This document shows, in pieces, positions 15,384 through 37,412 of a stretch of 64,000 nt of DNA (the first letter of the stretch is position 1; every line of letters begins with the position of its first letter). Below the pieces are notes generated by a model. That model worked only from the letters and a program-made list of their open reading frames with translations. It was not told the origin of the DNA and did no database searches. The DNA lies in the NCBI RefSeq assembly GCF_019285775.1, contig NZ_CP079105.1:124001-188000 (forward strand), read 5' to 3'. A program made the position numbers and the translations under genes. The stretch comes from Skermania piniformis (GTDB lineage: Bacteria; Actinomycetota; Actinomycetes; Mycobacteriales; Mycobacteriaceae).

Positions 15384-17177
15384 GTGCGAGGTTTCGGGTC
15401 TCGCGGCGATCCCCGCACCAGGGCGCGGGCAACATCGGCGCTGGCTACTGCGGCTGTCATGGCCAGGACGACGGGGTCGTTCTTCGTCATGGGCGGCCTG
15501 CTCGGCATGCTGATCACCGCGCTGATGCCGGCCACGCCGGGTGCGGGTGGGAACAAGAGCGTTCTCTACGTCGTGTCGTGTGTGGCCGCGATCGTCGGCG
15601 TCGGTGTGCTCGGTTGGGGCGACCGGCTCCCGCCGCGGACGCATCATCTGCCGATCGCGTTCGGCACCACGCTGATCAGCATCGTCGTGGTCTATTCGCC
15701 CAACGTGTACGGGGCGATGGCGCTGTCGACCATGTACGTCTTCGTCGCCTGCGACGCCGCCTTCTTCTTCACCTTGACCGCGGCCGCGCTGCACCTGCTC
15801 TATGCCGTGGTGAGCTGCGTCGTGCTGCTCGGCACCCGGGACGGATTGCCCTGGTGGGCCGGTGTGCTGACGGCCAGCGTGGCCGTCTCGGTCGGTGCGG
15901 TCGTGCATGTGCTCGGCAGGTTGGCCGCCGAGGCGGATCTGGACCTGCTCACCGGTCTGCTCAACCGGCGCGGCTTCGATCGATTGCTGAACGCGGAGTT
16001 GTCCACGGCGGCCAAGACCGACCGCCGGCCGGCGCTGGTACTGCTCGATCTGGACCGGTTCCAGACGGTGAACGACCATCTGGGCCGGCGCGGTGGCGAC
16101 GCCGTGCTGCAGCGGGTGGCAGCCACCTGGACGGCGATGCTGGAGCCGGACCAGCAGCTGGCCCGCTACGGTGGCGACGCCTTCGCGATCTTGTTGCCCG
16201 ACACCACCGAATCGGTCGCGCTGCAGCTCGCCGACCGGCTGCGCAGCGCGATCACCGCGAGCAGCTCGGCCGGGGTGACCTCCTGGCAATCCGGCGAATC
16301 GGCATCGCTGCTGGTCAGTCGGGCCGACGTCGGCCTCTATCGAGCAAAGCAGACCGGCCGCAACCGGACGGTGGTGGAGTCCTCGCACCGGCCGCCGCTG
16401 GCGGTCGAGCTGCGCGACGCGATCGACAAGGGCGCACTCGAGGTGCAATATCAGCCGATCGTCAGCCTCGGTGCGGGCGGCCGGGCGGTCGGCGTGGAGG
16501 CGTTGCTGCGCTGGACGTCGGTGGCCCAGCCGGGGGTGAGCACGGAAAGCCTGATCCGGGTTGCCGAAGAGTACGACCTGATCGGCGACCTCGATCAGTT
16601 GGTCCTGCGTCGTGCGTGCGAGGACGCCTCGCGGCTGCAGCGGGCCGACGCGGACATCGAGCTGACCCTGAACGTCAACGTGTCCGGGCTGGAGCTGGCC
16701 GACCCGGAATACGCGGCCCGGGTCCAGGACATCCTGGCAGCTACCGGCTGGCCGGCCCATCAGCTGGTGCTGGAGGTCACCGAAAGCGAGCTGGCCGCCG
16801 AGTCGGCTACCGCGGTGACCAACCTGCGCGAGCTGCGATATCACGGCGTGCGGATCGCGATCGACGACTTCGGCACCGGCTATTCGTCGTTGAGTCGGCT
16901 GGCGACACTCCCGAGCGACATCTTGAAGGTGGACGGCTCGTTCGTCGCGGCGATCAGTTCCGGTGGGACGGGATCGCCGTTGTTGGGGGTGATCGCGGCG
17001 CTCAGCGATGCGCTGGATCTGCAGGTGATCGCCGAAGGGGTGGAGACCGAGCAGCAGGCGGCCGTGCTCACCGAGCTGGGCTTCGCGCTCGCCCAGGGCC
17101 ACCATTACAGCGAGTCGCAGCCGGTGAGCGCATTGCTCGACGATCTGAGCGGAGCAAAACCGGGCACGTGGCGCTGA
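15384..17177 (+). CDS. Membrane GGDEF-EAL protein with a degenerate cyclase motif (GGDAF)
   Basis: A 597-residue c-di-GMP turnover protein. Residues 1 to about 175 contain five or six membrane helices. The GGDEF domain (DLLTGLLNRRGF at about 187, LLDLDRFQTVND) has GGDAF at 263-267, losing the key Glu, so cyclase activity is doubtful. The EAL domain looks complete: VEALLRW at 371-377, the Asn in LNVNVSG, VTES, DDFGTGYSS, LKVDGSF and AEGVE. The likely role is a phosphodiesterase, with the GGDEF domain perhaps a GTP sensor (inference). No RxxD inhibitory site is seen. Confidence 0.88.
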   Translation: MRGFGSRGDPRTRARATSALATAAVMARTTGSFFVMGGLLGMLITALMPATPGAGGNKSVLYVVSCVAAIVGVGVLGWGDRLPPRTHHLPIAFGTTLISIVVVYSPNVYGAMALSTMYVFVACDAAFFFTLTAAALHLLYAVVSCVVLLGTRDGLPWWAGVLTASVAVSVGAVVHVLGRLAAEADLDLLTGLLNRRGFDRLLNAELSTAAKTDRRPALVLLDLDRFQTVNDHLGRRGGDAVLQRVAATWTAMLEPDQQLARYGGDAFAILLPDTTESVALQLADRLRSAITASSSAGVTSWQSGESASLLVSRADVGLYRAKQTGRNRTVVESSHRPPLAVELRDAIDKGALEVQYQPIVSLGAGGRAVGVEALLRWTSVAQPGVSTESLIRVAEEYDLIGDLDQLVLRRACEDASRLQRADADIELTLNVNVSGLELADPEYAARVQDILAATGWPAHQLVLEVTESELAAESATAVTNLRELRYHGVRIAIDDFGTGYSSLSRLATLPSDILKVDGSFVAAISSGGTGSPLLGVIAALSDALDLQVIAEGVETEQQAAVLTELGFALAQGHHYSESQPVSALLDDLSGAKPGTWR

Positions 17178-17232
17178 CCCGCCCGAGCCCGAAACTCAAC
17201 CCGCTCGGAAACCTCCGACGCAGGTAAAACTT

Positions 17233-17255
17233 CCCGATCGGTCGATTAAGGTTCA
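17233..17255. repeat. 23-bp motif also found at 29914-29936
   Basis: This intergenic sequence, with the core CGATCGGTCGAT followed by AGGTTCA, matches 29914-29936 at 21 of 23 bases. It lies between two arms CCCGCTCG (about 17200) and CGAGCGGG (about 17257) that could pair, so it may be part of a transcription stop for the GGDEF-EAL gene. Confidence 0.4.
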
Positions 17256-17286
17256 ACGAGCGGGGTGAGGTCGGAGGTGATCGGCT

Positions 17287-18207: not shown

Positions 18208-18210
18208 CGG

Positions 18211-19971
18211 TTATCCGGCCGGTCGGGCTCGCGTCGAGTCGCTCCGGCTCGCCGGGCTCGGCCGGCCGCCGGCGATGAGATCGCGCGCCGCGTCGGCGGT
18301 CATCGGCCGGCCCAGGTGCCACCCCTGGCCGAGTCGGTAACCGAGGTCGATGGCCACCTGGAGCTGGCTTTCGGTCTCGATCCCTTCCAGCACGGTGTCG
18401 ACGCCGAACGCATCGCCCATCCGCTGGAACAGCCGCAGCAGCGAGACATCGCGACCGTTGTCCGGCTCGGCGACGAACCGGCGGTCGATCTTCACGCCGT
18501 CCAGGATGCCGGCGGCGGACAGGTCGGTGAGCCGGCCGATGTTGGAATAGCCGACGCCGAAGTCGTCGATGTAGATGGCGACGCCGGCATCGCTCATCTG
18601 CTGGAGCGTCTGATGGGCTTTGTCGTCGTCGTCCATGACGGCGGTCTCGGTAAGTTCCACGTGCAGCCGGTCGAGCGGGAGACGATGGTGGTTGGCGACG
18701 TCGGCGATCTGTTTGGCCAGGCCGATGTCGCGCAGCTGCCGGGCCGCGACGTTGATGCTGAGCATCTGGAACGAGGCGCCGGCAACGGTGGTCCACTCGG
18801 CGGCCGCCGCCATCGACTGATGCAGGATCTGCTCGAACAGGTCGTCGATCAGCGGGGACCGCTCGGCGAGGGTGATGAACTCGGCCGGCGACACCTGCCC
18901 GAGTTCGGGATCGCACCACCGCGCCAGTGCCTCGAACCCGACCACCCGACCGGAGCGCAGCAGCTGCAACGGCTGGAAGGCCGGATAGATCTCCTGTCGG
19001 GCGACCGCACGCCGGAGCCGGGTCGCGACCGCCAGCCGCCGGCGCGCGCCGTCGTTGCGGACGTCGTAGAACCGATGGGTGGCACCCCCGGATTGCTTGG
19101 CCGCGTACATCGCCGAGTCGGCGCGCGCCAGCAGCGCGGTGGCCGAATCGCCGTCCCGGGGGGCGAGGGCGATGCCCATGCTCGCGGTGATCGCCACGTC
19201 GATCTGATCGGCTTCGGCGCCTTCGTCCTGCGCGAAGACCGAGACGTCGATCCGCAGCGGCATGGCCAACGTCGCCAGGAGTTCGTCGGCGATTCGGGAG
19301 ATCTCCTCGACGTCCTCGCCCGGTACGGTCACCATCAGCTCGTCACCGCCCATTCGGGCGATCGTCGCACCGTCGGCGAGTGTGCCGCGCAGCCGCTCGT
19401 CGAGCCGGCGGAGCACCAGATCGCCCAGCGCGTGTCCGTGCGAGTCGTTGACATCCTTGAAGTCGTCCAGATCGATCAACAGCAGGGCCAGCCGATCGCC
19501 GGCTGCGATGGCTTCGCTCAGCTCGACCTCGGCCGACTGGCGGCTGCGCAGACCGGTGACCGTGTCCACCTCGGCAAGCCGGCGCAGCGACTTCTGCACC
19601 TCGACCCGGTCGGTGACGTCGACGCTGATTCCCAGCGTGCCGATCAGCGTCCGCTGCGCGTCGTAGGTAGGGGTATAGGTGGTCTCGTAGGTGCGCCCGG
19701 CCAGTTCCTCCACGACGGTGAACCGTTCGCCGGACAGCGCCCGGTGATAGGCGACGTGCAGGTCCGGGCGGTCCTGATAGAGATCGAAAATGCTCGCGCC
19801 GACCAAGGCGCCGGGGGTGATGCCGAGCTTGGCCAGCCCGCCGCCGGTCGACACCCGGATCACCCCGGCCAGGTCGAGGGCGAAGACGAGCAACGGAGCT
19901 TCGCCGACGATGTCCAGCAGTCGCTCGCGGCTTTCCCAATCCTCGTGGTCGTGCGAGGTGTCCTCAGTCAT
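18211..19971 (-). CDS. PAS-GGDEL-EAL protein, tandem paralogue 1
   Basis: A 586-residue soluble protein. A PAS domain (about 15-125) contains VIRVSTGGGLAKLG. The GGDEF domain has IDLDDFKDVND and GGDEL at 208-212, a variant that can be active. The EAL domain has FEALARW, the Asn in INVAARQL, LTET, IDDFGVGYSN, KIDRRF and EGIETE. Its first helix reads TGLRSRQS instead of TGLxNRxx. No RxxD inhibitory site is present. It could make or degrade c-di-GMP under PAS control. The next gene upstream on the same strand is a close paralogue, 150 bp away. ATG 19971 has only a weak ribosome-binding site. Confidence 0.88.
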   Translation of the reverse strand: MTEDTSHDHEDWESRERLLDIVGEAPLLVFALDLAGVIRVSTGGGLAKLGITPGALVGASIFDLYQDRPDLHVAYHRALSGERFTVVEELAGRTYETTYTPTYDAQRTLIGTLGISVDVTDRVEVQKSLRRLAEVDTVTGLRSRQSAEVELSEAIAAGDRLALLLIDLDDFKDVNDSHGHALGDLVLRRLDERLRGTLADGATIARMGGDELMVTVPGEDVEEISRIADELLATLAMPLRIDVSVFAQDEGAEADQIDVAITASMGIALAPRDGDSATALLARADSAMYAAKQSGGATHRFYDVRNDGARRRLAVATRLRRAVARQEIYPAFQPLQLLRSGRVVGFEALARWCDPELGQVSPAEFITLAERSPLIDDLFEQILHQSMAAAAEWTTVAGASFQMLSINVAARQLRDIGLAKQIADVANHHRLPLDRLHVELTETAVMDDDDKAHQTLQQMSDAGVAIYIDDFGVGYSNIGRLTDLSAAGILDGVKIDRRFVAEPDNGRDVSLLRLFQRMGDAFGVDTVLEGIETESQLQVAIDLGYRLGQGWHLGRPMTADAARDLIAGGRPSPASRSDSTRARPAG

Positions 19972-20121
19972 CCGCAACTTGCCCCTTCGGCCGAGCCGAC
20001 AAAAGTCGAACGAGGTAGCACCGGGAAATCGGAAACGCTGGATCAAGATCATTTATTGCGGGTGATCTTGCCCGCCCATCGTGCGGTGGGAGCCGGCGGC
20101 GCGGCGATCTGTCGATGTGAG

Positions 20122-21819
20122 CTACGTCTCGATCGACGCCCGGGCCAGGTCCGCCGCCACCGGCCGGCCCAGATGCCAGCCTTGCCCGAGTCGGTATCCC
20201 ATTCGGCGGGCGACCTCCAGGTGCTCGTCGGTTTCGATGCCCTCGATCACGATCTCGGCACCGAAGGTTTCGCTCATATGCCGGAACAGTTGCAGCAGTG
20301 CCGTGGTCCGGGGCTCCGCGGGATCGGCGATGAACCGTCGGTCGACCTTGATCCCGGCCAGGATGCCGGCGCTGGCCAGGTCGGTCAGCCGGGCCACGTT
20401 CGAGTAGCCGACGCCGAAATCGTCGATGTAGACACCGATCCCCGCCTCGCTCATCGCCGCCAGGGTCTGATGGGCGGTCTCCTCGTCGTCCATCATCGCG
20501 GTCTCGGTGAGCTCGGCGCAGATCAACCCGATCGGATGGCCGATCCGGTCGGCCGCCGTGACGATCCGGTCGGTCAATTGCGGGTCACGCAACTGCCGGG
20601 CGGCGATGTTGACCGCCAGCTGCCGACCCGGTCCATCCCGCTCGACATACCAGGTCACCGCCGCTTCGAGCGATTGCCGCAGGATGGAATCGAAGAGGTC
20701 GTCGATCAGTGGCGAACGTTCCGCGATCGCGATGAAGTCGGTCGGCGGTACCTGCCCGAGTTCTGGATCGTGCCAGCGAGCCAGCGCCTCGAAGCCGGTG
20801 ATCCGATTGTCGTTCAGGTCCCGTACCGGCTGGAACACCGGATAGAGCGCCTCGTCGGCGACCGCGCGGCGAAGCCGGGTGATCATCGTCAAGCGGCGCC
20901 GGGCGCCGTCGATCCGATTGTCGTAGAAGCAGTAGGTGGCGCCGCCGGAGCGCTTTGCGGCGTACATCGCACTGTCCGCCCGAGTCATCAGCTGACCCGC
21001 GCCGGTACCGTCGCGAGGAGCGAACGCGATGCCGATGCTGGCGGTGATGGTCATGTCGACCGGTCCGTCGGACAGCGCGAGCGGCAGATCGATCTGCAGC
21101 GGCCCGGCCACGACATCGAGGAGCTGCTGGGCCAACTGGGCGATCTGGTCCGGCTTGTCCAGCGGCACCGCGACCACCAGCTCGTCCCCGCCCATCCGGC
21201 CGACCAGCGCGTCGGCCGGCGCCGTGCGGCGGAGCCGGCGCCCGAGGTGCCGTAGCACCAGATCGCCCAACACGTGTCCGTGGGTGTCGTTGACGTCCTT
21301 GAAATCGTCCAGGTCGATCAGCAGCAGCGCCAGCTTGGTGCCGGTGGCCAGCATCCGGTCCACTTCGATCTCCGTGGCCCGCCGGTTGTGCAACTGGGTC
21401 ACCGCGTCGACATCGGTCAGGGTGCGCAGCGAGCGCTGCACGGCGACCTGGTCGGTGACCTCGACCGCAATTCCGCAGGAGCCGGCCAGTTCGCCGTCGG
21501 CGGTCCGCACCGGCGCGTACCTGGTCTCGTAGACCCGCTCGCCGTACTCGAGCACCACGTCGAACTGCTCGCCGGTCAACGCGCGGCGGTGATAGCTGTC
21601 GAGCCGATCGTCGGTGAGCGCGTCGAAGACGCTGCGGCCGACCAGCTCGCCGGGGGTGAACCCGAGCTGCGCCAGGCCGCCGCCGGTGGACATCCGGACC
21701 ACACCGTCGAGATCCATTGCATAAAGAATGAGCGGCGCTGCGGAGAGAATGTCGGAGAGTCGTTCGCCCTCGGTCCAGGGCTGGCCGATCGTCGGCCAGT
21801 CGAACGCGCCGACCGTCAT
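20122..21819 (-). CDS. PAS-GGDEL-EAL protein, tandem paralogue 2
   Basis: A 565-residue soluble protein with the same architecture as its downstream neighbour. The PAS domain contains VVRMSTGGGLAQLG. The GGDEF domain has LIDLDDFKDVND and GGDEL at 210-214. The EAL domain has FEALARW, VNIAARQL, LTETAMM, IDDFGVGYSNV, KVDRRF and EGIETDE. All catalytic positions I can identify are kept. The start is set by GAGAGGAGG seven bases before the ATG. The C-terminal GYRLGQGWHLGRP block is shared with the neighbour, which supports tandem duplication. Confidence 0.9.
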   Translation of the reverse strand: MTVGAFDWPTIGQPWTEGERLSDILSAAPLILYAMDLDGVVRMSTGGGLAQLGFTPGELVGRSVFDALTDDRLDSYHRRALTGEQFDVVLEYGERVYETRYAPVRTADGELAGSCGIAVEVTDQVAVQRSLRTLTDVDAVTQLHNRRATEIEVDRMLATGTKLALLLIDLDDFKDVNDTHGHVLGDLVLRHLGRRLRRTAPADALVGRMGGDELVVAVPLDKPDQIAQLAQQLLDVVAGPLQIDLPLALSDGPVDMTITASIGIAFAPRDGTGAGQLMTRADSAMYAAKRSGGATYCFYDNRIDGARRRLTMITRLRRAVADEALYPVFQPVRDLNDNRITGFEALARWHDPELGQVPPTDFIAIAERSPLIDDLFDSILRQSLEAAVTWYVERDGPGRQLAVNIAARQLRDPQLTDRIVTAADRIGHPIGLICAELTETAMMDDEETAHQTLAAMSEAGIGVYIDDFGVGYSNVARLTDLASAGILAGIKVDRRFIADPAEPRTTALLQLFRHMSETFGAEIVIEGIETDEHLEVARRMGYRLGQGWHLGRPVAADLARASIET

Positions 21820-22040
21820 CCGCGTGCCTCCTCTCACCGACTTGTTCGCCTGACTTCGAGGTTGCCCGATCTGGCCGCCATAACCATGTGGCGGCACCGA
21901 TCCGCGGCTTGGTTCAGCATACCTGCCGGTAATCGGCATGATCATCTTGTTTGTGGGCGTGCCGGTTGCGGAATCGCCACAAAATAACTGCTTGACCTGT
22001 TGCCGTTCCGTTCCGGATCGCCGCTGGCACAGTAGGACTG

Positions 22041-23036
22041 GTGCAGACGATTCTTCCGGCGCGGGCCCTGCCGGCCGGTTTGGCGGTGGCGTGGCTGGTC
22101 GGCGCGGCGGCCGCGGTGCAGGCGCGGGTCAACGGCGAGCTCGCGGCGCGGTTGCACGACGGGGTGGCGGCAGCGCTGATCAGTTTCGCGGTCGGCCTGG
22201 TCGTGTTGCTCTCGGCGGCACTGGTCGACAGCCGAATTCGGTTCGGCATCAGGGCGATACGGGCCGCGGTGGGTGCGGGTGAGCTGACGCCGGGGCAGTG
22301 CCTGGGGGGCTTGTGCGGCGCGGTGGTGGTCGCGACCCAGGCGCTGACGGTTCCGGTGATCGGGGTCGCGCTGTTCGCGGTGGCGCTGGCCGGTGGACAG
22401 ATCGTCGGCGGCCTGGTGGTGGACCGGCTCGGTCTGGGCCCGGCGGGTCGAGTTCCGGTCAGTCCGGTCCGCGTGGTCGGCGCCGGGTTGGCCGTGCTCG
22501 GGATGACCGTGGCGGCCGCCGACCGGCTCACCGCCGGAACTCAGGTCGCGCTGCTCGCGGCGCTGCCGGCGGCCGCCGGCTGTGCGATCGCCTGGCAACA
22601 GGCGGTGAACGGTCGGCTGAGCGCCATCGGTGGTCCGGCTGCGGCGAGCCTGATGAACTTCGTGATCGGTTTCGCCGGCCTGCTCGTCGGCTGGCTCGCG
22701 CTCGTCGCGGTCCGGGGCATTCCGGCGCCGCCGCCCCACGCGCCGGAGCTCTACCTGGGCGGGCTGCTCGGCATCGCGATCGTCGGGTTGGGTGCGATTG
22801 CGGTGCGCTGGGTCGGGGTGCTGTTGCTCGGGCTCGGTATCGTCGCCGGCCAACTCGTCGGCGCGCTGCTGCTCGACCTGCTGCTGCCGGCCGGGGCCCA
22901 GCTGTCGGCAGCGACGGTGGCCGGCTGCGTCCTGGTCGGGCTCGGGGTGGCGGTTGCCGCCCGGCCGACGCCGCCCGGACCCGGCAGAGCGGGGTGGGCC
23001 GGCCGACGTCAGAGCCGGCGGGCGCGCAATTCGTGA
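22041..23036 (+). CDS. DMT-type transporter, two DUF606 (YdcZ) repeats
   Basis: A 331-residue membrane protein with about ten helices in two homologous halves. Each half carries a QARVNGEL- or QQAVNGRL-type segment (QARVNGELAARL and QQAVNGRLSAIGG) followed by ISF- or MNF-type helices, which is the signature of the DUF606/YdcZ transporters. The substrate is unknown. It is divergent from the paralogue-2 gene, with a 221-bp intergenic region that holds a GCCGCCA/TGGCGGC inverted repeat and no gene. The 3' end overlaps the convergent MBL-Rieske gene by 28 bp. Confidence 0.8.
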   Translation: MQTILPARALPAGLAVAWLVGAAAAVQARVNGELAARLHDGVAAALISFAVGLVVLLSAALVDSRIRFGIRAIRAAVGAGELTPGQCLGGLCGAVVVATQALTVPVIGVALFAVALAGGQIVGGLVVDRLGLGPAGRVPVSPVRVVGAGLAVLGMTVAAADRLTAGTQVALLAALPAAAGCAIAWQQAVNGRLSAIGGPAAASLMNFVIGFAGLLVGWLALVAVRGIPAPPPHAPELYLGGLLGIAIVGLGAIAVRWVGVLLLGLGIVAGQLVGALLLDLLLPAGAQLSAATVAGCVLVGLGVAVAARPTPPGPGRAGWAGRRQSRRARNS

Positions 23037-24562
23037 CCCTGGGTGGTCTTGCAGCGCCCCGTCTCCAGGTCCCACTGCCAGCCGTGCTGGTTGCAGGTGA
23101 GCGTGGTTCCCTCCACGACGCCGAACTTGGTCAGGTCGGCCTTCAGGTGCGGACAGCGACGTTGGATCTCCCACCCGGCGAGTTCGGTGGATGCGGTGTC
23201 GTCGTGCGCCTCGGCGAACCAACCGTCGGCGTAGAGCACCCGCTCGTCGGTGAGGCATTTGAAGAAGGTGTAGAGGAACTCGTTGTAGCCGCCGATCCGC
23301 CAGGCGGAGAATCGGGTGGAGAGGAAGATGCTGTTCACCCAGTCGGGTTCCCGATCCCGGAGCACGGTGCGGACCAGCTCGGGGGCGATTCGGAAGCCGT
23401 AGCGGTACTTGCCGTCACCGTCCGCGGGCGGGCGAACGCGGCGGGCCGGGAAGTCGAGCACGACGGTCTCCTCGTGCTCCGGCCCGTCGAGCACCAGGCC
23501 GACCGGGTAGCCGATGCCGTTGCTGATCAGATCGGAGGACCGCATGATCGGCTCGAACAGTTCGGCCAGCGCGGGCAACAACGGTTCGCCGGCGGCCGGC
23601 GCCCAGGCGGCCTTGTGCGCCGCGAGCTCCGGTGCGCGTCGCGTCGCCATGTCCGCGATATAACCGGCCTTGTCGGCGTAGATCGTGTCCGGGTCGACCG
23701 GGTGGGTCAGGCTGAGTTCGCCGCCGTGTATCTCGGCCACCGAACCGGGAATCATCAGCAGGCCGTTGTCCGCGCCGTGCTGGGCCATCTGGTCGAGGAA
23801 GACCAGCTGATCCGGGAAGATGTTGCCGATGTCGTCGTGGTCGTCGTTGAGGTACCGCAGGTCGGGGTCGAGGAACACCGGCGGTCCGGCCGAGGGCACC
23901 ACCCAGGTGGCGCCCACCTGCTCGATATAGGCGCGCGCCCGATCCATGCCGCGCTGGCGCTTCTGCTTGCCGAAGTTGGCCTTGGTGCGTTTCGGGATGT
24001 CGTACACCATCGGATACCAGATCGCGCCGGAGTACTGCAGCAGATGGATGTCGATCGTGCCGAATGCCTCGGACAGCACGTCCAGGTCCATCGGCCGGGC
24101 GTCGTTCATGTTGAAGCAGGTGGTTTCGCCGTCCGCGACGACCAGCCCGCTGTCGCCGATCGGGCCGTCCGCCGGCGCGCGCAACGCGATGATCATCACG
24201 TCCAGCTCACGACCGTCGCGGCCGACGATCCGGTGCTTGACCGAGTCGGTGGTCTCGAAGAACGAGTGGAACCCGAGTGCCTCGAGTTCGCGGCGCAGGT
24301 CCGGCACCGGATAGTCCGGCAGCAGGACCGTCGCGTCCTTGTTCACGTAACGGGCCAGGTGCGCCGGATCGAAGTGGTCCCGGTGCAGGTGGGAGACGTA
24401 GAGGTAGTCGCAGTCGCCCAGCCGATCCCAATCCAGCGCGGTGTTGTCCGGGAACGGGACCCAGGAGGCGAAGTAGGCCGGATTCACCCAGGGGTCGCAG
24501 AGGATCGATCCCGCTTCGGTCTGAATATGGAATCCCGCATGTCCGACACTGGTGACCTGCAC
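23009..24562 (-). CDS. MBL-fold hydrolase fused to a C-terminal Rieske [2Fe-2S] domain
   Basis: A 517-residue protein. The N-terminal metallo-beta-lactamase (UlaG-like) domain has the metal motif HLHRDHFD (H58, H60, D62, H63). The C-terminal 75 residues form a Rieske domain with CPH and CNQHGW, the two Cys-x-His pairs that hold a 2Fe-2S cluster. This suggests a redox-coupled hydrolase or oxygenase. The substrate is unknown. AGGAGG sits just before the GTG at 24562. It is divergent from the short TetR-like gene. Confidence 0.82.
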   Translation of the reverse strand: MQVTSVGHAGFHIQTEAGSILCDPWVNPAYFASWVPFPDNTALDWDRLGDCDYLYVSHLHRDHFDPAHLARYVNKDATVLLPDYPVPDLRRELEALGFHSFFETTDSVKHRIVGRDGRELDVMIIALRAPADGPIGDSGLVVADGETTCFNMNDARPMDLDVLSEAFGTIDIHLLQYSGAIWYPMVYDIPKRTKANFGKQKRQRGMDRARAYIEQVGATWVVPSAGPPVFLDPDLRYLNDDHDDIGNIFPDQLVFLDQMAQHGADNGLLMIPGSVAEIHGGELSLTHPVDPDTIYADKAGYIADMATRRAPELAAHKAAWAPAAGEPLLPALAELFEPIMRSSDLISNGIGYPVGLVLDGPEHEETVVLDFPARRVRPPADGDGKYRYGFRIAPELVRTVLRDREPDWVNSIFLSTRFSAWRIGGYNEFLYTFFKCLTDERVLYADGWFAEAHDDTASTELAGWEIQRRCPHLKADLTKFGVVEGTTLTCNQHGWQWDLETGRCKTTQGHELRARRL

Positions 24563-24646
24563 TGCACCCTCCTGCGACTTACGTTTGCAACGTGTCAGGG
24601 TAGGCCGGGACTTGATCGAGCCGGAGATCGGGGAGATTCTGGCCTG

Positions 24647-25111
24647 GTGACCCCGCCCCAGGGGCCGCCGCAGAATCCGGAATTTTCCGGATATCTGGAT
24701 GCGGTGGCCAAGAAGCTCCGCCTCCCGTTCGCCACCCCCGAGCTGGTCGATCGCATCGCCACCGGAACGGTGAACGAGGCCGGCCGACGCACGTTGTACA
24801 TGCTGATCACCACCTGGGATCTGGCCGGCGGCGGTCCGTTCGCCGCCAGCACGGTCGGCGGCGCGGTATCTGCCCGGACCATCGACATGCTGCAGCGGAT
24901 GTTCATGAACGGGGTGTTCGACCGCGTGTTGGTCGCGCTCGGCGCCGACGACGTGAAGTTCCGGGCATCGTTGTGCGCTTCGCAATTGGTCGGACTGGGC
25001 ATGATCCGGTACGCCGTGGGCGCCGAGCCGATCGCGTCGATGGAGGTGAACCGGCTGGTGGATGCGATGGCCCCGACCCTGCAGCGGTATCTCACCGGGC
25101 CGCTGTCGTAG
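24647..25111 (+). CDS. TetR C-terminal-domain protein lacking the DNA-binding domain
   Basis: A 154-residue protein. Its second half (FRASLCASQLVGLGMIRYAVGAEPIAS ... APTLQRYLTG) is very like the ligand-binding domain of actinobacterial TetR regulators. Nothing resembling a helix-turn-helix precedes it: only 84 bp separate its GTG from the divergent MBL-Rieske start, and the upstream frame is shadow sequence. It is either a truncated remnant or a stand-alone sensor or dimerisation protein. A GGGGAG about 12 bases upstream is a weak ribosome-binding site. Confidence 0.6.
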   Translation: MTPPQGPPQNPEFSGYLDAVAKKLRLPFATPELVDRIATGTVNEAGRRTLYMLITTWDLAGGGPFAASTVGGAVSARTIDMLQRMFMNGVFDRVLVALGADDVKFRASLCASQLVGLGMIRYAVGAEPIASMEVNRLVDAMAPTLQRYLTGPLS

Positions 25112-25228
25112 GCCCGCACCGCCGGCCTGCACCGCCGGCCCGGACCGCTCGGCGCCGAACTGACCGCCCGGTAGGTTGCGGCGTGTCGGCAACGGCTCGG
25201 CATTCCCCCGACCGGGCGGCCGACCGAC

Positions 25229-25234: not shown

Positions 25235-25242
25235 GACCGGCT

Positions 25243-28398: not shown

Positions 28399-28456
28399 CC
28401 GGCGGCGTGCTGACCGGTTCGGAAAACGTGTCGGTGGGTCGTGATGCAATAGGTAT

Positions 28457-29911
28457 ATGACCGCAGCCAGTGCTTTTGCTCCCGGTATCGGGTTTGGTGT
28501 TGGTTCTGCGCGGGTGGTGTTGGCGGGGTTGCGGGCCAACCGGGCGGCGGCGGAGCGGGTCGCGGTGGAGCGGGCCGAGTTGACGGTCGAGTGGTGTCGT
28601 TGGCATGCGCCGGTGGGTGATAGCGAGGTGGATCGGTTCGGGGTGGGGTGGGTCACCCCGGGTGGTGCGGGTTCGCCGGAGGTGGGCGAGGCTGCGGTTG
28701 CGGAGTTGGCGGTCGCGTTGCGGCATTCGACCGAGTCCGGGATGTCGTATGTCGGGGCGGTGCTCGAAGTCTGCTATCGGTTGCCGCGTCTGTGGGAACG
28801 AGTCAAGGCCGGGCAGACGCCGTGGTGGCGAGCGCGGCGGATCGCCGATGCCACTATCGGCTTGTCGCTGGAGGCGGCCGCGTTTGTCGACGAGCGGCTC
28901 GCCGCCTGTGCGGGGACGGTGTCGTGGGCGCAGTTGGATCGGTTGGTCGAGGAAGCCCGGATCCTGGCCGACCCGGACGCTGCGAAAGAAGAGCTCGCCA
29001 TTGATACCCGCAGGGTGGAGATCGACACCCGCACGGTGAGTTTGACCGGCACGGTCCGGATCGAGGGCGAGTTGGATTTGACCGATGCGGTGGACCTGAA
29101 CCACGCCCTGTCCGATATCGCCGACGATTTGGCGGCCTGTGGCAGCACCGACAGCCTGGATGCGCGGCGCTCGACCGCGTTGGGTGAACTCGCGCGCCGG
29201 CAACCCGGATTGCCGTTCGACGCAACAGAACCCACACCAGAACCCGTAGCGGCAGAGCCGTCGCGGGAGCCGGTCCCGTCGCTGGCGGAGATGGCTGTGG
29301 CGGCACCGGCTGCGTTGCGCCGTCGCAGGCCGCGTGATGTTCAGTTGCATGTGTATATCAGCGCTGATCAGCTCGCCGGTTCCGGTGGCCCCCTGGGCCG
29401 GGTCGACTCCCCGTCACCGACCCCGGTGAGTATCGAGGCGATCCGGGCTTGGTGCGGCAGCCCGGACGCGAACGTGACCGTCCGGCCGGTGCTGGACCTC
29501 GCCGAACACGTCCAGACCGATGCGTATCAGATCCCGGACCGGCTGCGCGAACAGGTCGTGCAGACCAGCAACACGTGTGTGTTCCCGTACTGCAACCGCC
29601 CCGCCCGCGGCTGCGACCTCGACCACACCCACCCGCATGACCAGGGCGGGCCCACCAGCAGCGACAACCTCGCCCCACTCTGCCGAAAACACCACCGGCT
29701 CAAAGGAAACCGCGGTTGGCGCTACCGACGCCGCAGCCCCGGTACTTACCTGTGGACCACGCCGGCCGGCGGGATCTACCTGCGCGACGGCACCGGCACC
29801 ATCGACCTCACCCCACCCGGCAACCCCCCGCCCCGACCACCAGATTCTCCGGTGCTCCATCGAGTGGGTCGGCCGCCGCCCACACCGGACGACGAACCGC
29901 CACCCTTCTGA
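28457..29911 (+). CDS. 13E12-repeat family protein: DUF222 plus HNH endonuclease domain
   Basis: A 484-residue protein of the actinobacterial 13E12/DUF222 family. The N-terminal DUF222 region is alpha-helical and the C-terminus has an HNH nuclease fold: CVFPYCNRPARGCDLDHTHP, then GGPTSSDNLAPLCRKHHRLK. The Cys pairs bind a structural zinc and the His/Asn residues form the active site. The family is repeated in many actinobacterial genomes, and a mobile or defence role is suspected but unproven. Synonymous codon choice changes inside the gene, from G/T-ending in the 5' half to C/A-ending in the HNH half. Confidence 0.88.
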   Translation: MTAASAFAPGIGFGVGSARVVLAGLRANRAAAERVAVERAELTVEWCRWHAPVGDSEVDRFGVGWVTPGGAGSPEVGEAAVAELAVALRHSTESGMSYVGAVLEVCYRLPRLWERVKAGQTPWWRARRIADATIGLSLEAAAFVDERLAACAGTVSWAQLDRLVEEARILADPDAAKEELAIDTRRVEIDTRTVSLTGTVRIEGELDLTDAVDLNHALSDIADDLAACGSTDSLDARRSTALGELARRQPGLPFDATEPTPEPVAAEPSREPVPSLAEMAVAAPAALRRRRPRDVQLHVYISADQLAGSGGPLGRVDSPSPTPVSIEAIRAWCGSPDANVTVRPVLDLAEHVQTDAYQIPDRLREQVVQTSNTCVFPYCNRPARGCDLDHTHPHDQGGPTSSDNLAPLCRKHHRLKGNRGWRYRRRSPGTYLWTTPAGGIYLRDGTGTIDLTPPGNPPPRPPDSPVLHRVGRPPPTPDDEPPPF

Positions 29912-29942
29912 ACCCCGATCGGTCGATCGAGGTTCAGAAGGG
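29903..29942. terminator. Hairpin over the HNH gene stop codon
   Basis: CCCTTCTGAACC and GGTTCAGAAGGG form a perfect 12-bp stem around a 16-base loop that itself contains CGATCG palindromes. The left arm includes the stop codon. There is no U-tract, which is common for actinobacterial terminators. It also separates this gene from the convergent hydrolase gene. Confidence 0.6.
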
Positions 29943-29952
29943 CAGTGTCAAT

Positions 29953-30054
29953 TACGCCGGCTCGCCGGCAATGTCCCTACGCCGGCTCGCCGGCAGTGTT
30001 GATCAGGCCGGCCCCGCCAGCAGTGTTGATCAGGCCGGCCCCGCCAGCAGTGTG
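29953..30054. repeat. Short tandem repeats across the 3' end of the CocE gene
   Basis: TACGCCGGCTCGCCGGCA occurs at 29953-29970 and again at 29978-29995. A 27-bp unit then occurs twice in perfect tandem (29994-30020 and 30021-30047) and begins a third time. The second 27-bp copy contains the stop codon of the hydrolase gene, so the outer copies are untranslated duplicates of its 3' end. Confidence 0.8.
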
Positions 30055-32030
30055 ACGAAGCTCGGCGCCGACGGGTCGAGCTGCACGTGCTGCGGCAGCA
30101 GCGCGCTGTCGTTCAACAACGGACGCAGCGGCAGGCCTTTGGGGAAGTTGCTGGCGAACACGTCCACCCGGAATCGATGGCCCGGCGCCAGGATCGCGTC
30201 GGTCGGGGTGAGCCCGATGTCGAGCGCGGTCGGCCGGCCGGGCACTACCGGTTGCCGGGTGGCAAGCGACAGATGCGGGACCGGGTTGAGGTAGTCGCCG
30301 TTCGAGGCGCGCTCGGCCCGCGAATCGTCCACCGCGCGCAGCGAGGCGACCAGCTGGCCGGTGGACAGCACGGTCGACCGGCCGTCCGGAGCGACGTCGT
30401 TCAACGTCGCCGTCCAGTAGCCGTCGGGCGCGTCGAGCACGGTGTTCAGGTGCACATTCACGTAGCCGGAGACGGCGGTGGGCCGGTCGACCGGCGCGCT
30501 GGTGAACGTCAGCCCGTTCAGTTCGTGTGGCCGGGCATCCTCGGCGCAGCCGACCAGGATCGCCGTCAGCCCGGCGCTCTCGATCGCGGAATCCCGCGAG
30601 CACACGCTCATCACGCCCGGACCGACGGTCAGCCGTGCCGAGTCGGCCGGAGCCGTCGCGCTGAGGCTGCCGTCGTGCAGGCTGGTCGAGGTGGTGCCAC
30701 TGGGCGCGGCGCCCAGATACAGCCGCTGCGGTTCCACTCCCGGCCGCGGGTAGTCGGCGGCCGTTGTCCAGCCGCCACCCAGCTGCCACATCGTCACCGG
30801 CCCGTACCGGTCGATGCCGTTGTCGATTCCCTTGAGCCAGTGGTCGAACCAGGCGCGCTGCAGCACGTCCCAGCGGGGTGGCTCGCCGGGCCGGCCGGCG
30901 TTCGCGCCACCGTTGATGTGGTAGGTCCGGTCCATCAGGAGCTGCTTCTGACCGGGTGGCAACTGCGCCTTCCGGTAGATATCCGGCTCGGTGTTGGTGA
31001 ACAGGTCATGCCAGCCGCCGACGACGAACGTCGGCACCCGGACCTGGTCCATCGGGGTGAGCCAGTCCTCGCGCAGCCGACTCTGGTCGTCCAGCAGCGC
31101 CTGCAACTCCGGCGGCGCCTGGTCGACATTCATGGTGGCGAGCGCTTGATACACCACGTCGAGGAAGGTGAACGGGCTGGACAATCGGTCCCGCACCCAC
31201 ACCGGATCGAGCCGGCCCAGTGCCGCGGAGAGTACGTCCGGCGCCAGCTTGAGGGTATTGACCAGGATCAGCCAGGGCAGGATGAAGCCGAAACCGAGCG
31301 CACCGCCGGTGGCGGCCACGTCCCGGATCAGGTCGGCACCCGGTTCGGCCGGGAAGATCGCCTTCAGCGCCGCCGGGTTCTTGCTGGCCGCCTGCACCTG
31401 GTTGATCCCGGAGTACGACAAGCCGCTCATCCCGACCTTGCCGTCCGACCACGACTGCCGGCTCGCCCAGTCGATCACTTCGACGGTGTCCTGCTGCTCA
31501 CGCTGCCCCAGGACCTGCCACGTGCCCTGGGAAAAGCCGGTACCCCGCACGTCGACCACCACCTGGGTGTAGCCGCTCTCGACCAACTTGCGATCCACGG
31601 TGAAAGTGCGGGGCAAACCGCCACCGAGCGCTTTGGTCAGGTCGGTGAACCCGCTCAATCCGGTGCCGGCGAGATCGAAGCCGCGGAAGAAATCGACCAG
31701 CGCATCGGACAGCACCGGCAACGACAACACCGAGTCGGTCATCATCGAGATCAGCTTGGTGTACGGCGTCATGTTCACGATCACCGGCGTGGGCCCGGTG
31801 GCTCCGGCAGGCCGGTAGATATTGGCCTTGAGCACGGTGCCGTCGCTCATCGTGATCGGCACGTCCCACTCGATGGTCACCCCGGAGTACCGAGATGGCC
31901 CGTCGACCGCGGCGGTCCATGCGGCGCCGTTCGGCCCGCCGTCCGGCGCCGCCTGGGCGCTCGGTGCGGCGACTGCCAACAACGTGCCGGCAAGCAGCAA
32001 CGTCGACAGTCGACGAATACCGGTGCCCAT
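30030..32030 (-). CDS. Secreted CocE/NonD-family hydrolase (peptidase S15)
   Basis: A 666-residue exported alpha/beta hydrolase. The start has a Sec signal (RRLSTLLLAGTLLAVAAPSAQA) and GAGGAG seven bases ahead. The nucleophile elbow is GLSYSG in KVGMSGLSYSGINQ. An Asp in GGWHDLF and a His in TYHINGG probably complete the triad. The C-terminal third is the beta-rich X-Pro dipeptidyl-peptidase C domain. Likely substrates are esters, amides or acylated peptides outside the cell. Confidence 0.85.
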   Translation of the reverse strand: MGTGIRRLSTLLLAGTLLAVAAPSAQAAPDGGPNGAAWTAAVDGPSRYSGVTIEWDVPITMSDGTVLKANIYRPAGATGPTPVIVNMTPYTKLISMMTDSVLSLPVLSDALVDFFRGFDLAGTGLSGFTDLTKALGGGLPRTFTVDRKLVESGYTQVVVDVRGTGFSQGTWQVLGQREQQDTVEVIDWASRQSWSDGKVGMSGLSYSGINQVQAASKNPAALKAIFPAEPGADLIRDVAATGGALGFGFILPWLILVNTLKLAPDVLSAALGRLDPVWVRDRLSSPFTFLDVVYQALATMNVDQAPPELQALLDDQSRLREDWLTPMDQVRVPTFVVGGWHDLFTNTEPDIYRKAQLPPGQKQLLMDRTYHINGGANAGRPGEPPRWDVLQRAWFDHWLKGIDNGIDRYGPVTMWQLGGGWTTAADYPRPGVEPQRLYLGAAPSGTTSTSLHDGSLSATAPADSARLTVGPGVMSVCSRDSAIESAGLTAILVGCAEDARPHELNGLTFTSAPVDRPTAVSGYVNVHLNTVLDAPDGYWTATLNDVAPDGRSTVLSTGQLVASLRAVDDSRAERASNGDYLNPVPHLSLATRQPVVPGRPTALDIGLTPTDAILAPGHRFRVDVFASNFPKGLPLRPLLNDSALLPQHVQLDPSAPSFVTLLAGPA

Positions 32031-32175
32031 CACTCGACTCCTCGTGGATTGCCTGTAGTAGGGATCGCGATTCGATCTCGATAGGGCACCATATTCGTAG
32101 CGCCCCGAGTCGGGTGCGGATTCGCCGCATCCGGCCGAATCCAGGTACGCCGAACGGACATTTCGGCGGCGGCCG

Positions 32176-32757
32176 TCAGCTCGGGTCGGTGCCGCGGAGC
32201 GCGGTGAGCCAGAGGACGAACGCCGCCGCAACGATCGTTGCTCCGGCAAACGTGGCGCCGCCACCGCCGGTCAGGTAGACCCAGCCGAGGCCGGCCACCG
32301 GAGCTCCTACCGCCGGCTGCGCATCCAGCAGCAGCCGGCGCGGCCAGCGGCTTGCAACGGTCGCCCGAGCCGCACCGTCGGGGTCCGGCCGGCTCGGGTT
32401 CTCCCGCAGCCGACCGATCGGTTCCCGGGTGCGCGTTCGCCCGGACGGATAGCTGCGAGCCGGCAAGCCGGCGATCAGTGCCGGGTCGTAGTAGACCGGC
32501 GTCCAGCGGCGGTCACCGACCAGCCAGGACCGGGCGACGAGCCGGTGCTGTTGCCGCACGCGGATCGTGCCCGGCGCCGGTGCGGCCGCCCGAGCCAGGG
32601 CGTAACCCAACCGGAATCCGGCGCCGCCGAGCACCGCCACGATGACCGTGACCAGCGCCGCAGCACCGTCCGGGCCCGCCGTGGGGAGGAGCGACGCGGC
32701 CAGCCCGACCGTCCCGACGCTCACCGCCAGCGGATACCGGAGCGGCCCCGGGATCAC
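32176..32757 (-). CDS. Hypothetical membrane protein
   Basis: A 193-residue protein I do not recognise. Two hydrophobic helices near the N-terminus (YPLAVSVGTVGLAASLL, ALVTVIVAVLGGAGFRLGYAL) are followed by a basic soluble loop with WLVGDRRWTPVYYDPAL, and there are two more helices at the C-terminus. It starts 10 bp after the stop of the peptide-binding lipoprotein gene and is probably the last gene of that operon. The GTG start is inferred from position. Confidence 0.65.
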   Translation of the reverse strand: MIPGPLRYPLAVSVGTVGLAASLLPTAGPDGAAALVTVIVAVLGGAGFRLGYALARAAAPAPGTIRVRQQHRLVARSWLVGDRRWTPVYYDPALIAGLPARSYPSGRTRTREPIGRLRENPSRPDPDGAARATVASRWPRRLLLDAQPAVGAPVAGLGWVYLTGGGGATFAGATIVAAAFVLWLTALRGTDPS

Positions 32758-32767
32758 CCGCGTCCGC

Positions 32768-34444
32768 TCACTTCGTGAAGCCGACCTCGGTGTAGTCCGC
32801 GCCGGCCAACCCGAACGCCCCGTAGTTGGCCAGGTTGTCCCGGACCGCGACGTTGCCGGCCGACTGGGTGAGCGGGATCGAGTGCCCCTCCTCGAAGATC
32901 ATCCGATCCGCTCGGTTGGCCATCTGGATCGCCTTGGCCGGATCCAGCTCGGACAAGGTGTCTTCGATCAGCTGGTTCAGCTCGGGCGAGCCGATCCGGG
33001 CCTTGTTGCTCTGCAGGTCGTCGGGATAGTAGGCGTAGATCTGCCGCAGTGCGGCCAGCGGCTGGAATCCGCCCGACCAGGAGAAACTGGCCAGCTCGAA
33101 ATTGCCCGGATCGATCACGTCGGTGAACAGGCCGGTCCCCGGGAAGGTCTGGATCTCGGTCTTGACCCCTACCTTCGCCAGATTCTGCTGGGCGATCTGC
33201 GCCGACCGCACCCAGGTGTCCTGCTGGTACATGACGTGCCGCAGCACCAGCTTGCGGCCGTCCTTCTCCCGGATACCGTCGGAACCCGGCGTCCAGCCGA
33301 GCGCATCCAGTTCCCGTGCGGCTTTGTCCGGGTCGTAACCGATCGGCTCGGCATTGTCCTGGTAGCCCTGCTGGCCCTCCAGGAAGATGTGGTTGTTCAG
33401 CGGGTGCGGATCGGTGACCAGGCCGTTCAGGATCGCGGTGGCGATGCCTTGGCGGTCGATCGCCTTGCCGATCGCCACCCGCAGCTTCGGGTCGGCCAGC
33501 AGCGCGCCGGGCGCGCCGTTGAAGGTGTATTGCGACCAGCGATTCGCGGGCGCGTGCCGGACCTGGATGCCGGCCGAGCCCTGCGCGGTCTTCACCTCGT
33601 CCAGGCTGGACCCCAGCTCCACCGCGTCCAGCTCGTTGTTCTGCAGTCCGGCCAGCTGGGCCGCGTGATTGAGCACGGTGAACGTGATGGTGTCCAGCTT
33701 CGGCGGCGTACCCCACCAAGCGGGGTCGCGCTCGAGCACGATCCGGTTGGCGCCCTTGTCCACCGACGCCAGCTTGAACGGGCCGGCGGTCACCGGCAGC
33801 CCGTTGCGCAGGCTGTCGTTGAACGCCTCGGGTGTGCTGGTGACCGATTTCGGCAACAGGGGCGAGAAGCTGCCCTGCCACTCGGCATAGTGCTTGCTGT
33901 AGGTGACGATCGCCTGCCGGTCGTCGGTTCCGCGTTCCACTTTGGCCACCCGGTCGAAGCCGGCATTGGCGGTGATCAGATAGCCCGGGTCGCGGCCGCT
34001 CAGCGCGTTCGCCTGGGCGGCCAGATCTTCCCAGGTGATCGGGGTGCCGTCGGACCAGTTCGCCTTGGGATTGATCGTGTAGCTGACCTGCTGCGGGTCG
34101 GTTCCGGTCAGCTGCACGTCGGTGAAGTAGTCGTGCCGGACCGAGAGCGCGCCGGACGCGTCCGGGGTCATGTCGCCGGGCAGCATGATCGTGGCCACCG
34201 ACGACGCTTCGCCGTCGCTGTCCACCTGCAGCGGATTGAACTGGGCGGGGAACCCGCTCAGGGCCAGGCGCAGGTTGCCGCCGTCGCGCAGCTCGGCCGG
34301 ATCCTTCGGGTTGATATCGCTGGTGTTGCCCAGCCCGGTCGCCCCGGCCCCGACGGCGCCGTCCTCCGACGCGTTACAGCCGCTGAGCATCAGCCCGGTA
34401 GCGAGCACCGGGACGACTATCCGGATCAGCCTGTGCGATCGCAT
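32768..34444 (-). CDS. ABC transporter substrate-binding lipoprotein (SBP family 5, DppA/OppA-like)
   Basis: A 558-residue extracytoplasmic peptide-binding protein. Its lipobox LSGC places the lipid-bearing Cys at residue 23. Family features include SYTINPKANWSDGTPITWEDL, the AAWWG-type DPAWWGTPPKLDTITF, and LRVAIGKAIDRQGIA. A GAGAG sits before the ATG at 34444. It is encoded away from the permeases: the matching permease and ATPase genes are at 41.2-45.7 kb, so this is either their distant partner or a paralogue. It is preceded by a small unknown gene 13 bp upstream. Confidence 0.88.
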   Translation of the reverse strand: MRSHRLIRIVVPVLATGLMLSGCNASEDGAVGAGATGLGNTSDINPKDPAELRDGGNLRLALSGFPAQFNPLQVDSDGEASSVATIMLPGDMTPDASGALSVRHDYFTDVQLTGTDPQQVSYTINPKANWSDGTPITWEDLAAQANALSGRDPGYLITANAGFDRVAKVERGTDDRQAIVTYSKHYAEWQGSFSPLLPKSVTSTPEAFNDSLRNGLPVTAGPFKLASVDKGANRIVLERDPAWWGTPPKLDTITFTVLNHAAQLAGLQNNELDAVELGSSLDEVKTAQGSAGIQVRHAPANRWSQYTFNGAPGALLADPKLRVAIGKAIDRQGIATAILNGLVTDPHPLNNHIFLEGQQGYQDNAEPIGYDPDKAARELDALGWTPGSDGIREKDGRKLVLRHVMYQQDTWVRSAQIAQQNLAKVGVKTEIQTFPGTGLFTDVIDPGNFELASFSWSGGFQPLAALRQIYAYYPDDLQSNKARIGSPELNQLIEDTLSELDPAKAIQMANRADRMIFEEGHSIPLTQSAGNVAVRDNLANYGAFGLAGADYTEVGFTK

Positions 34445-34457
34445 GTGAATCAATCTC

Positions 34458-35066: not shown

Positions 35067-35168
35067 CGGCTCGATCTTGCCATCGTGTCGGCGCTGCGCG
35101 GTGTGCCGGGTCGTGCCGACCGAGCGCGGCGTGTTCGAGCCGTCTCGGAATTTTGCGGGCCGGGTGGG

Positions 35169-37412
35169 TTAGTGGGTGGCGTTGGCGGTGGTGAGGAATC
35201 GGTTGACGCCGGTGGTGGGGCGTTCCCAGAGGTAGCCTTGGCCGATTTTGCAGCCGAGGGTGATGAGTTGGTTGCGTTCGGCTTCGGATTCGACGCCTTC
35301 GGTGACGACGGCGATGCCGAGTTGGTCGGCGAGTTCGATGACGTGGCGGACGATGAGTCGGGTGGCGGGGTCGGTGACGAGTCGGCGGGTGAATTTTTGG
35401 TCGATTTTGAGGACGTCGACGTCGAGTTGGGCGAGGTAGTAGAGGGATGCGTATTCGCTGCCGAAGTCGTCGATGGCGAGTTGGTAGCCGGCTTGGCGTA
35501 GTTCGGTGAGTCGTTGGAGGGAGGATTCGCGGACGAAGACGGATTCGGTGATTTCGAGTCGGATTCGGTTGAGGACGTCGGGGCGTTGGGTGGCGAGGGT
35601 GGTGAGTCGTTCGATTTGGGCGTCGGATTCGAGTTGGAGGGGGGAGATGTTGACGGCGATGCGGAAGCCGTCGGGTAGTTGGGTGCCGACGTCGTCGATG
35701 GTGGCGACGACGGTGTCGAAGGCCCAGTTGCCGAGTGTTTCGATGGCGCCGTTTTGTTCGGCGAGGGTGACGAATTCGCCGGGGGAGATGGTGCCGAGTT
35801 CGTCGGTGCGCATGCGGGCGAGTGCTTCGGCGCCGATGGGGTGGCCGGTGCGGAGGTCGACGATGGCTTGGTAGGCGAGCCAGGTTTCGTCGGTGGTGCC
35901 GACGCGTTGTTGGAGGAGTTCGAGGATGAGTTTGTGGCGTTTGCGTTCTTGGCCCATGTCGTCGACGTAGTCGCGGATGTGGCCGCCGCCGTCGGCTTTG
36001 GCGTAGTACTGGGCGATGTCGGCGCGGCCGATGGTTTGCAGGAATTGTTCGTCGGTTCCGGCGGAGACGGCGAGGCCGACGCTGGCGCTGACTTGGATGG
36101 GGCGTTGGTCGACGTCGACGGGGGTGTCGAAGAGGCGGTCGATGAGGTGGCGGACTTGTCGGGTGGGGTCGGGGGTGTGGTGGGGGGTGTCGGCGGCGAA
36201 GAGCATGGCGAATTCGTCGCCGCCGAAGCGGGCTGCGGCGACGATGGGTTCGGGTAGGGAGTTCAGGCGGCGGCCGATGGCGATGAGGAGGGCGTCGCCG
36301 AAGTGGTGTCCGTTGACGTCGTTGAGGAGTTTGAAGCGGTCGACGTCGAGGTAGACGACGCCGACGGGGCCGTGGATGGTGGCGGCGTGTTCGACGAGGC
36401 CGCGGCGGTTGAGTAGGCCGGTGAGTTCGTCTCGGCGGGCTTGCCAGGCGCTTTTGCGTTCGGCGTGGGCGAGTGCGCTGACGGCGCGGCGGGTGCGGAT
36501 GACGGAGGTGCCGACGGCGAGTGCGCCGAGGGAGAAGACGAGTAGTCGTTCGGGTTCGGTGAGTTGGGGGTTGATCATGGGGACGACGAGGGGGAGGGCG
36601 GCGGCGATGACGACGGTGGCGGTGCGGGGCAGGGACCATTCGCCGCGGTAGGCGTCGGTGGGTTCGGTGATCGATCGCATGGAGGGGTGTAGTGCGGCGG
36701 CGGCCCACAGCAACACCGACAACGCCACCACATCGCGGGCGGGGTCGATCAGCGGATTGTCGATCGACCGCCCGAACGGTCCCGCCACGTCGGCGAAGAT
36801 CAGTGCGATCCAGCCCGCCATCAGCAGCACCGCGGCCCGACCCCGCAACAGATCGACCATCAGCAACCGACCGACCAACGCCACCAAGATCACATACGCG
36901 GCCGGTCCGACGATGCCGAGGGCTATCTGATACGGCAGCAGCTTGGTCGCGTGCCAGCCCGGGAGGGCGGAGAGCGGGATGACGAACGCGGCATAAGCCA
37001 GCAGCAGCACGATCATCTCCAACCGGGCATCGGTGACCCGACTGGTCCCCCGGCTCCGGATGATCAACAGCAGGATGATCACCTGGCAGCAGCTCATCCA
37101 GGTGATGACGGTCAGGTTCAGCCAACCCCCGGCGATCGGGGTGGAGGAGATGTTGATCAGGACCGGCCGACCCAGGTTGCCGACGAGCAACACCCCGGTC
37201 CAGATCCACACACTCCGCACCGCCGGCCGGTTCCGCCGCACCCCGATCACCAAGAAGACAAACGCCAGGACACAGGCGACCACCCGGATGTCGAGCCGAT
37301 AACGGAGCGCGTCGGCCGGGCTGTCGAACACGAGGGCGGGTACCAGTCCGACGACATAGGCGACCACCGCCAGAACCGCCGCCACGATCCACAACCGACT
37401 ACCGGGCGCCAT
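35169..37412 (-). CDS. Membrane GGDEF-EAL protein with two codon-usage regimes
   Basis: A 747-residue protein. About eight membrane helices fill the first 290 residues. The GGDEF domain has RDELTGLLNRRGL, LDVDRFKLLND and an intact GGDEF, without an RxxD site. The EAL domain has AEALARM, AVNISPLQL, ITES, DDFGSEYAS (Gly changed to Glu in the DDFGxGYS loop), KIDQKF and EGVESE. From about 36,690 to the stop the codons end almost only in C or A, unlike the 5' membrane part. ATG 37412 was chosen because the frame upstream has poor codon use. Confidence 0.85.
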   Translation of the reverse strand: MAPGSRLWIVAAVLAVVAYVVGLVPALVFDSPADALRYRLDIRVVACVLAFVFLVIGVRRNRPAVRSVWIWTGVLLVGNLGRPVLINISSTPIAGGWLNLTVITWMSCCQVIILLLIIRSRGTSRVTDARLEMIVLLLAYAAFVIPLSALPGWHATKLLPYQIALGIVGPAAYVILVALVGRLLMVDLLRGRAAVLLMAGWIALIFADVAGPFGRSIDNPLIDPARDVVALSVLLWAAAALHPSMRSITEPTDAYRGEWSLPRTATVVIAAALPLVVPMINPQLTEPERLLVFSLGALAVGTSVIRTRRAVSALAHAERKSAWQARRDELTGLLNRRGLVEHAATIHGPVGVVYLDVDRFKLLNDVNGHHFGDALLIAIGRRLNSLPEPIVAAARFGGDEFAMLFAADTPHHTPDPTRQVRHLIDRLFDTPVDVDQRPIQVSASVGLAVSAGTDEQFLQTIGRADIAQYYAKADGGGHIRDYVDDMGQERKRHKLILELLQQRVGTTDETWLAYQAIVDLRTGHPIGAEALARMRTDELGTISPGEFVTLAEQNGAIETLGNWAFDTVVATIDDVGTQLPDGFRIAVNISPLQLESDAQIERLTTLATQRPDVLNRIRLEITESVFVRESSLQRLTELRQAGYQLAIDDFGSEYASLYYLAQLDVDVLKIDQKFTRRLVTDPATRLIVRHVIELADQLGIAVVTEGVESEAERNQLITLGCKIGQGYLWERPTTGVNRFLTTANATH

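Follow-up and report, generated by a model that had tools for sequence, protein, structure and literature searches.

The 64,000-nt stretch of the Skermania piniformis genome analysed here (the window) is made up of bases 124001–188000 of the single 4.23-Mb contig NZ_CP079105.1. By eye, the contig begins at dnaA, with a match of ~70% to the starts of two other genomes. We found five genes for cyclic di-GMP (c-di-GMP) signalling within 22 kb of the window, confirming what had been proposed from the letters alone (the original prediction). Each of the five, called A to E, is a single open reading frame (ORF) whose product has both a GGDEF (PF00990) and an EAL (PF00563) domain, scoring far over the Pfam cut-offs. 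A (15384..17177) is on the + strand, B (18211..20052) and C (20122..21945) are on the − strand, D (28398 at its end, starting at 26095 or 26056) is on the + strand, and E (35169..37589, with a start that could also be 37412) is on the − strand.

The crowding of the five genes is real and non-random. The whole genome has 22 GGDEF and 13 EAL matches; when 13 EAL genes were placed uniformly at random on the genome, at least five fell inside 22.3 kb in 3 of 300,000 trials, and with the B/C pair counted as one, at least four of 12 did so in 86 of 300,000.

A, D and E have membrane inputs, while B and C have PAS_4 domains. The predicted tally of three membrane and two PAS inputs thus stands, but not the statement that every input is different, as B and C are sister duplicates sharing the same PAS_4 input. 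A Kyte-Doolittle scan found five hydrophobic segments in A, six in D and seven in E, and a predicted model of A has six N-terminal helices (6 sequences, mean predicted local distance difference test score 75.8, predicted template modelling score 0.47; the model served for helix count only). A phmmer search with A among solved structures yielded 89 chains, of which the best 60 all match in the GGDEF or EAL part, none covering the membrane part. GAF was not matched by Pfam in any of the five proteins.

The residues to which catalytic roles are assigned in EAL domains (EAL, N, E, E, DD, K, E and Q) are complete in all five proteins. Loop 6, for which a figure legend gives the consensus DFG(A/S/T)(A/G)(Y/F)(S/T) (PMC2994820), fits in A and D, has V at the first variable place in B and C, and is altered in E (DFGSEYA, within DDFGSEYA). 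The GG(D/E)EF signature is intact as GGDEF in D and E; B and C read GGDEL, and A, with GGDAF, lacks it. An RxxD I-site occurs only in D, as RRED. D, with both motifs canonical, is probably capable of both synthesis and hydrolysis of c-di-GMP; E probably makes c-di-GMP, its EAL domain being of uncertain activity; B and C are probably phosphodiesterase-leaning; and A is most likely a dedicated c-di-GMP phosphodiesterase. ARAGORN called a tRNA-Gln antisense inside E (35722–35812); within the window no Rfam match reached the gathering score, so this call is probably false.

Tandem GGDEF and EAL domains following an N-terminal input are also described for Rv1354c of M. tuberculosis and MSDGC-1 of M. 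smegmatis (PMC2994820). Rv1354c is described with a GAF input (PMC2994820), giving the GAF-GGDEF-EAL layout of the Rv1354c/DcpA type, unlike the membrane or PAS_4 inputs here, and M. smegmatis with one GGDEF-EAL protein (PMC2994820), against 13 EAL genes in the present genome.

Lineages of A to E

Homology searches were run against one draw of 200 other genomes of the family, scoring the best 5 or 6 candidates per genome, and for E also across the order, scoring the best three. A-type matches at 1e-70 were found in 23 of the 200 genomes, in five other genera. B-type matches at 1e-90 came from three, all of the genus Antrihabitans (g15), and D matches at 1e-130 from five, in three genera, the best (52%) being in the Antrihabitans-genus genome G014. 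For E, none of the 200 gave a match at 1e-90; a search of 298 genomes from the order yielded, outside the family, some matches that cover most of its length at 31–34% identity.

B and C are 57% identical over residues 36–595 of B. A quick tree of 88 proteins grouped A with 15 orthologues from g22, a near genus that is probably Nocardia, and paired B with C; D went with proteins of G014 and of a second Antrihabitans-genus genome (G039), and E stood alone on a long branch. A more careful tree, as far as printed, gave the B+C clade a support of 100/99.7, and a single clade of A to E was rejected by the approximately unbiased (AU) test (p-AU 0.0016). The trees place A to E in four lineages, and one duplication is the best explanation for B and C. 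The nearest relatives of B/C and of D lie elsewhere in Antrihabitans genomes, away from the genes that surround serS. B/C-type EAL genes of G014 (G014:C18:378005-378756 and G014:C19:624703-625421) appear to be split in two pieces, as if decaying.

The serS neighbourhood and EAL genes in the family

The anchor gene of the region is serS (14065..15336, +), assigned by Pfam as seryl-tRNA synthetase and matched in 199 of the 201 family genomes. From these 199 we chose 25 serS loci of relatives by hand, all 15 of g22 and 10 of other genera. In tblastn searches of the fetched loci the shared order was septum gene, serS, (A), Zn peptidase, YdcZ region, Rv3818-like gene, one or more acyltransferases, and S15 hydrolase. 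This backbone varies: the Zn peptidase was unmatched in the 15 g22 loci, several loci are without some member or end too soon, and no fetched relative is complete.

A directly follows serS in all 15 drawn g22 genomes, one copy each. With matches at 1e-6, one GGDEF-EAL gene (A alone) was found in 15 of the 25 loci and none in 10; no locus holds more than one, and the relatives examined showed no linkage between A, B/C, D and E. The comparison with relatives that had been advised thus found, in place of the same five genes at the same site in most of them, only A.

In the window, the Zn_peptidase gene (PF04228; 17287..18207, +; Pfam and synteny) lies between A and B. A YdcZ-type drug/metabolite transporter (DMT) gene found by family search (22041..23036, +) is likely real; the 438-aa ORF overlying it on the − strand matched no family and was taken as a shadow ORF, through which the YdcZ region was matched in relatives. 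The Rv3818-like Rieske/SCP2 ORF (23009..25192, −; Pfam and synteny) probably has its true start nearer 24600. It is followed by an acyltransferase gene (PF01553; 25243..25986, +; family search and synteny) and, after D, by a gene for an HNH protein (28457..29911, +; Pfam) and one for an S15/CocE-NonD family hydrolase (30030..32264, −; family search). Two acyltransferases stand beside S15 in three of the relatives' loci (L118, L120, L122), whereas the window has one, with D and the HNH gene between it and S15. A gene for a family 5 extracellular solute-binding protein (SBP_bac_5; 32768..34453, −; family search) lies between the hydrolase gene and E. The predicted Zn peptidase, hydrolase, transporter and HNH neighbours were therefore all recovered, except that the DUF222 part ascribed to the HNH gene product had no match at E <= 0.1.

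G+C content at third codon positions (GC3) of A to D resembles that of the backbone; recent horizontal gain of B to D, considered on composition, was rejected because their GC3 is the same as the backbone's. E has a GC3 of 0.829 and a strong C-for-G third-position skew (−0.57), unlike its neighbours. The HNH gene beside D has the lowest GC3 (0.786) of the 13 genes measured and is a possible latecomer.

EAL was found in 141 of the 201 family genomes and in none of the other 60, and by hand count 29 of the other 200 have at least nine matches, with no more than 13 candidates scored per genome. The g22 genomes have 2–4 EAL genes each, against 13 here. The single such protein that the original prediction gives for M. 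tuberculosis belongs to the poor end of the family range. Four Antrihabitans-genus genomes differ in number of EAL matches: 19 in G014 (a count that includes split genes), 19 in G039, 15 in G058 and 6 in G075.

EAL genes also cluster in other genomes. A scripted count in four of them found four genes in ~12 kb in G016, three together in G124 and three in G028, and none together in G136 (for 12 of its 14 positions); by eye, G173 and G108 each have three in 6 kb. Five is the largest EAL cluster among the genomes looked at, and crowding recurs in some EAL-rich ones. The G016 group (L192, G016:C1:3381000-3399000) includes an outgroup member of the A clade among its four genes. The present lineage may have gained genes, or g22 may have lost them. 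Our literature search found no report of such a c-di-GMP gene cluster, which is weak evidence of absence since its terms named no clusters and it covered open-access papers only.

Explanations for the crowding

We think it likely that ordinary GGDEF-EAL regulators were added separately to a conserved housekeeping backbone, and that the resulting 22-kb crowd is not one module. A would be an old resident beside serS, B and C would stem from one duplication, and D and E would belong to other lineages, the separate genes having been added at different times; the order and source of the additions are what we infer here. If four lineages met in one conserved stretch, signalling genes can be crowded without forming a module. 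Other genomes of the family also have high EAL numbers and EAL clusters of smaller size. The expanded module of the original prediction therefore survives in part: the genes are dense, non-randomly placed and numerous relative to g22, but they are of four lineages that show no linkage in the relatives examined, and a genome rich in EAL genes is nothing unusual in this family.

A true functional module, in which the five proteins would set one local c-di-GMP pool, for example for a change of the cell envelope, and the Zn peptidase, acyltransferase and hydrolase would be its outputs, seems improbable to us. It would account for crowding beyond chance and for neighbours of the peptidase, acyltransferase and hydrolase types; these neighbours are, however, backbone genes present in relatives without B to E. 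The five genes moreover form four blocks on both strands (A and D on +, B/C and E on −) with opposite-strand genes between them, and the four lineages were not seen linked in relatives. Acquisition of the whole as one genomic island is still far less credible. As an island would predict, the fetched relatives lack B/C and D at this site and the HNH gene beside D has lower GC3; yet A, B/C and D are separated from one another by backbone genes, no integrase was found among the ORFs scanned (12.7–41.2 kb), only the HNH gene and E depart downward from the backbone-like GC3 of A to D, and the tRNA-Gln call inside E is the probably false one noted above.

Two further explanations have more in their favour. 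Dual GGDEF-EAL genes might be favoured near the origin, through dosage or a tolerant insertion zone, with the 22-kb crowd as the densest part of this gathering; we regard this as a doubtful but arguable alternative. The distance to dnaA is no more than 205 kb for nine of the 13 EAL genes (those at 140–205 kb and at 4045–4171 kb), with a binomial tail of 3.8e-7, or 7.8e-4 with A to E as one, and all nine GGDEF-only genes are more than 255 kb away. This pattern was noticed post hoc, however, and by hand reading the numbers within 205 kb are 0 of 13 in G016 and 3 of 13 in G028, the only other EAL-rich genomes with a contig seen to start at dnaA; no dnaA was seen at the contig start in G136 and G124, so these are outside the comparison. 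Somewhat stronger, though we give it a little less than an even chance, is a rich ancestral set followed by losses: relatives of B/C and D would already have been present in the ancestor shared with Antrihabitans, to be lost later in g22. Besides their high EAL counts, G014, G039 and G058 have the nearest relatives of B/C and D that the searches found, a relative of the gene at 4170 kb also occurs among Antrihabitans-genus genomes, and GC3 is not foreign. Yet G075, of the same genus, has only its six EAL matches, and the Antrihabitans copies are off the serS backbone (L118–L131), so that they have at least moved.

Several points weigh against separate addition to a backbone. Even when B and C are collapsed, chance placement hardly explains the crowding, so an origin-near position, dosage or shared regulation may contribute. 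GC3 of B, C and D (0.86–0.88) is not foreign-looking, and these genes may be old here and lost in relatives. Three of the serS loci span only 8–13 kb, and the place of E, ~21 kb from serS in the window, is beyond most of them. The position of E in the trees is unsure, given its long branch, and GGDEL, as in B and C, may still be active.

Gene A and its predicted promoter

The fourth-position Glu of GGDEF is lost in A and in all 15 g22 orthologues (GGD[A/V]F, 16/16), while none of the 15 orthologues differs at the three GTP-pocket positions examined (D, N, D). The four Antrihabitans A-type sequences displayed retain GGDEF, one of them with N at the first pocket position. In Caulobacter CC3396 a degenerate GGDEF domain is described as binding GTP and activating the adjoining EAL domain (PMC7288161). 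The same combination of degenerate GGDEF, kept GTP-contact residues and complete EAL is found by sequence in A and the 15 orthologues, a likeness to CC3396 (PMC7288161) by description, not by sequence comparison; unlike CC3396, A has a six-helix N-terminal part and GGD[A/V]F. GTP activation of A as in CC3396 would be an inference by analogy.

Upstream of A we read by eye a −10-like TANNNT box, TAATCT, followed by 7 nt and the GTG start codon (15371..15386, +), and predict from it that A has its own, leaderless promoter. A TANNNT box 6–7 nt before the start occurs in 15 of 15 g22 loci, as TAGGCT with 7 nt in 14 and TACCCT with 6 in one, although orthologous loci are not independent observations for this count; 13 of the 3359 ATG/GTG triplets of the window carry such a box. 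By eye it is also present before A in three Antrihabitans-genus loci and one locus of genus g26. For M. tuberculosis, a TANNNT −10 element is reported to stand before 73% of the primary starts, and among genes that have such a start 26% are reported to be leaderless (PMC3898074). The box at A resembles the TANNNT promoters of such leaderless actinobacterial mRNAs (PMC3898074); the transcription start of A itself is predicted, from sequence. Against the prediction, a sigma-70 scan, which also requires a −35 element, reported no promoter at A, its only hit being at 17350 on the + strand.

The gap between serS and A, on the same strand, is 47 nt here and 78–150 nt to the conserved start in g22, and no terminator-like site was found on the + strand within 15200–18300; there may be read-through from serS into A. 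A serS-A operon, growth-coupled through serS, was considered and dropped, since the conserved −10-like box at the start of A makes its own promoter more likely. A seems to be an autonomous unit, because the box accompanies it into g15 and g26 loci where the 20 kb fetched gave no match to serS.

The reading that fits A best is a membrane phosphodiesterase that is translated from a leaderless mRNA and may be gated by GTP. Its membrane bundle would sense some cue; its GGDEF domain, presumably unable to make c-di-GMP, may still bind GTP; and its EAL domain would cut c-di-GMP. We put forward only tentatively, as rather unlikely in its full form, that A is a lineage-wide GTP-gated membrane phosphodiesterase whose fourth Glu was lost in an ancestor common to g22 and this genus, with the GTP pocket kept, the gene fixed beside serS and the mRNA leaderless. 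If so, c-di-GMP would be broken down in step with the level of GTP and with the special state of translation in cells that are not growing. PilZ (PF07238) had no match in the 201 family genomes, against 5 of 14 control genomes matched, in a search that took in no other effector family; the c-di-GMP effectors of the family are probably of non-PilZ kinds. With its degenerate GGDEF and its place beside serS throughout the g22 sample, A is a candidate for how a family without PilZ matches tunes c-di-GMP. In Antrihabitans stalagmiti two A-type genes occur in tandem (L126, G058:C23:662000-681900), and the 20 kb fetched there gave no match to serS.

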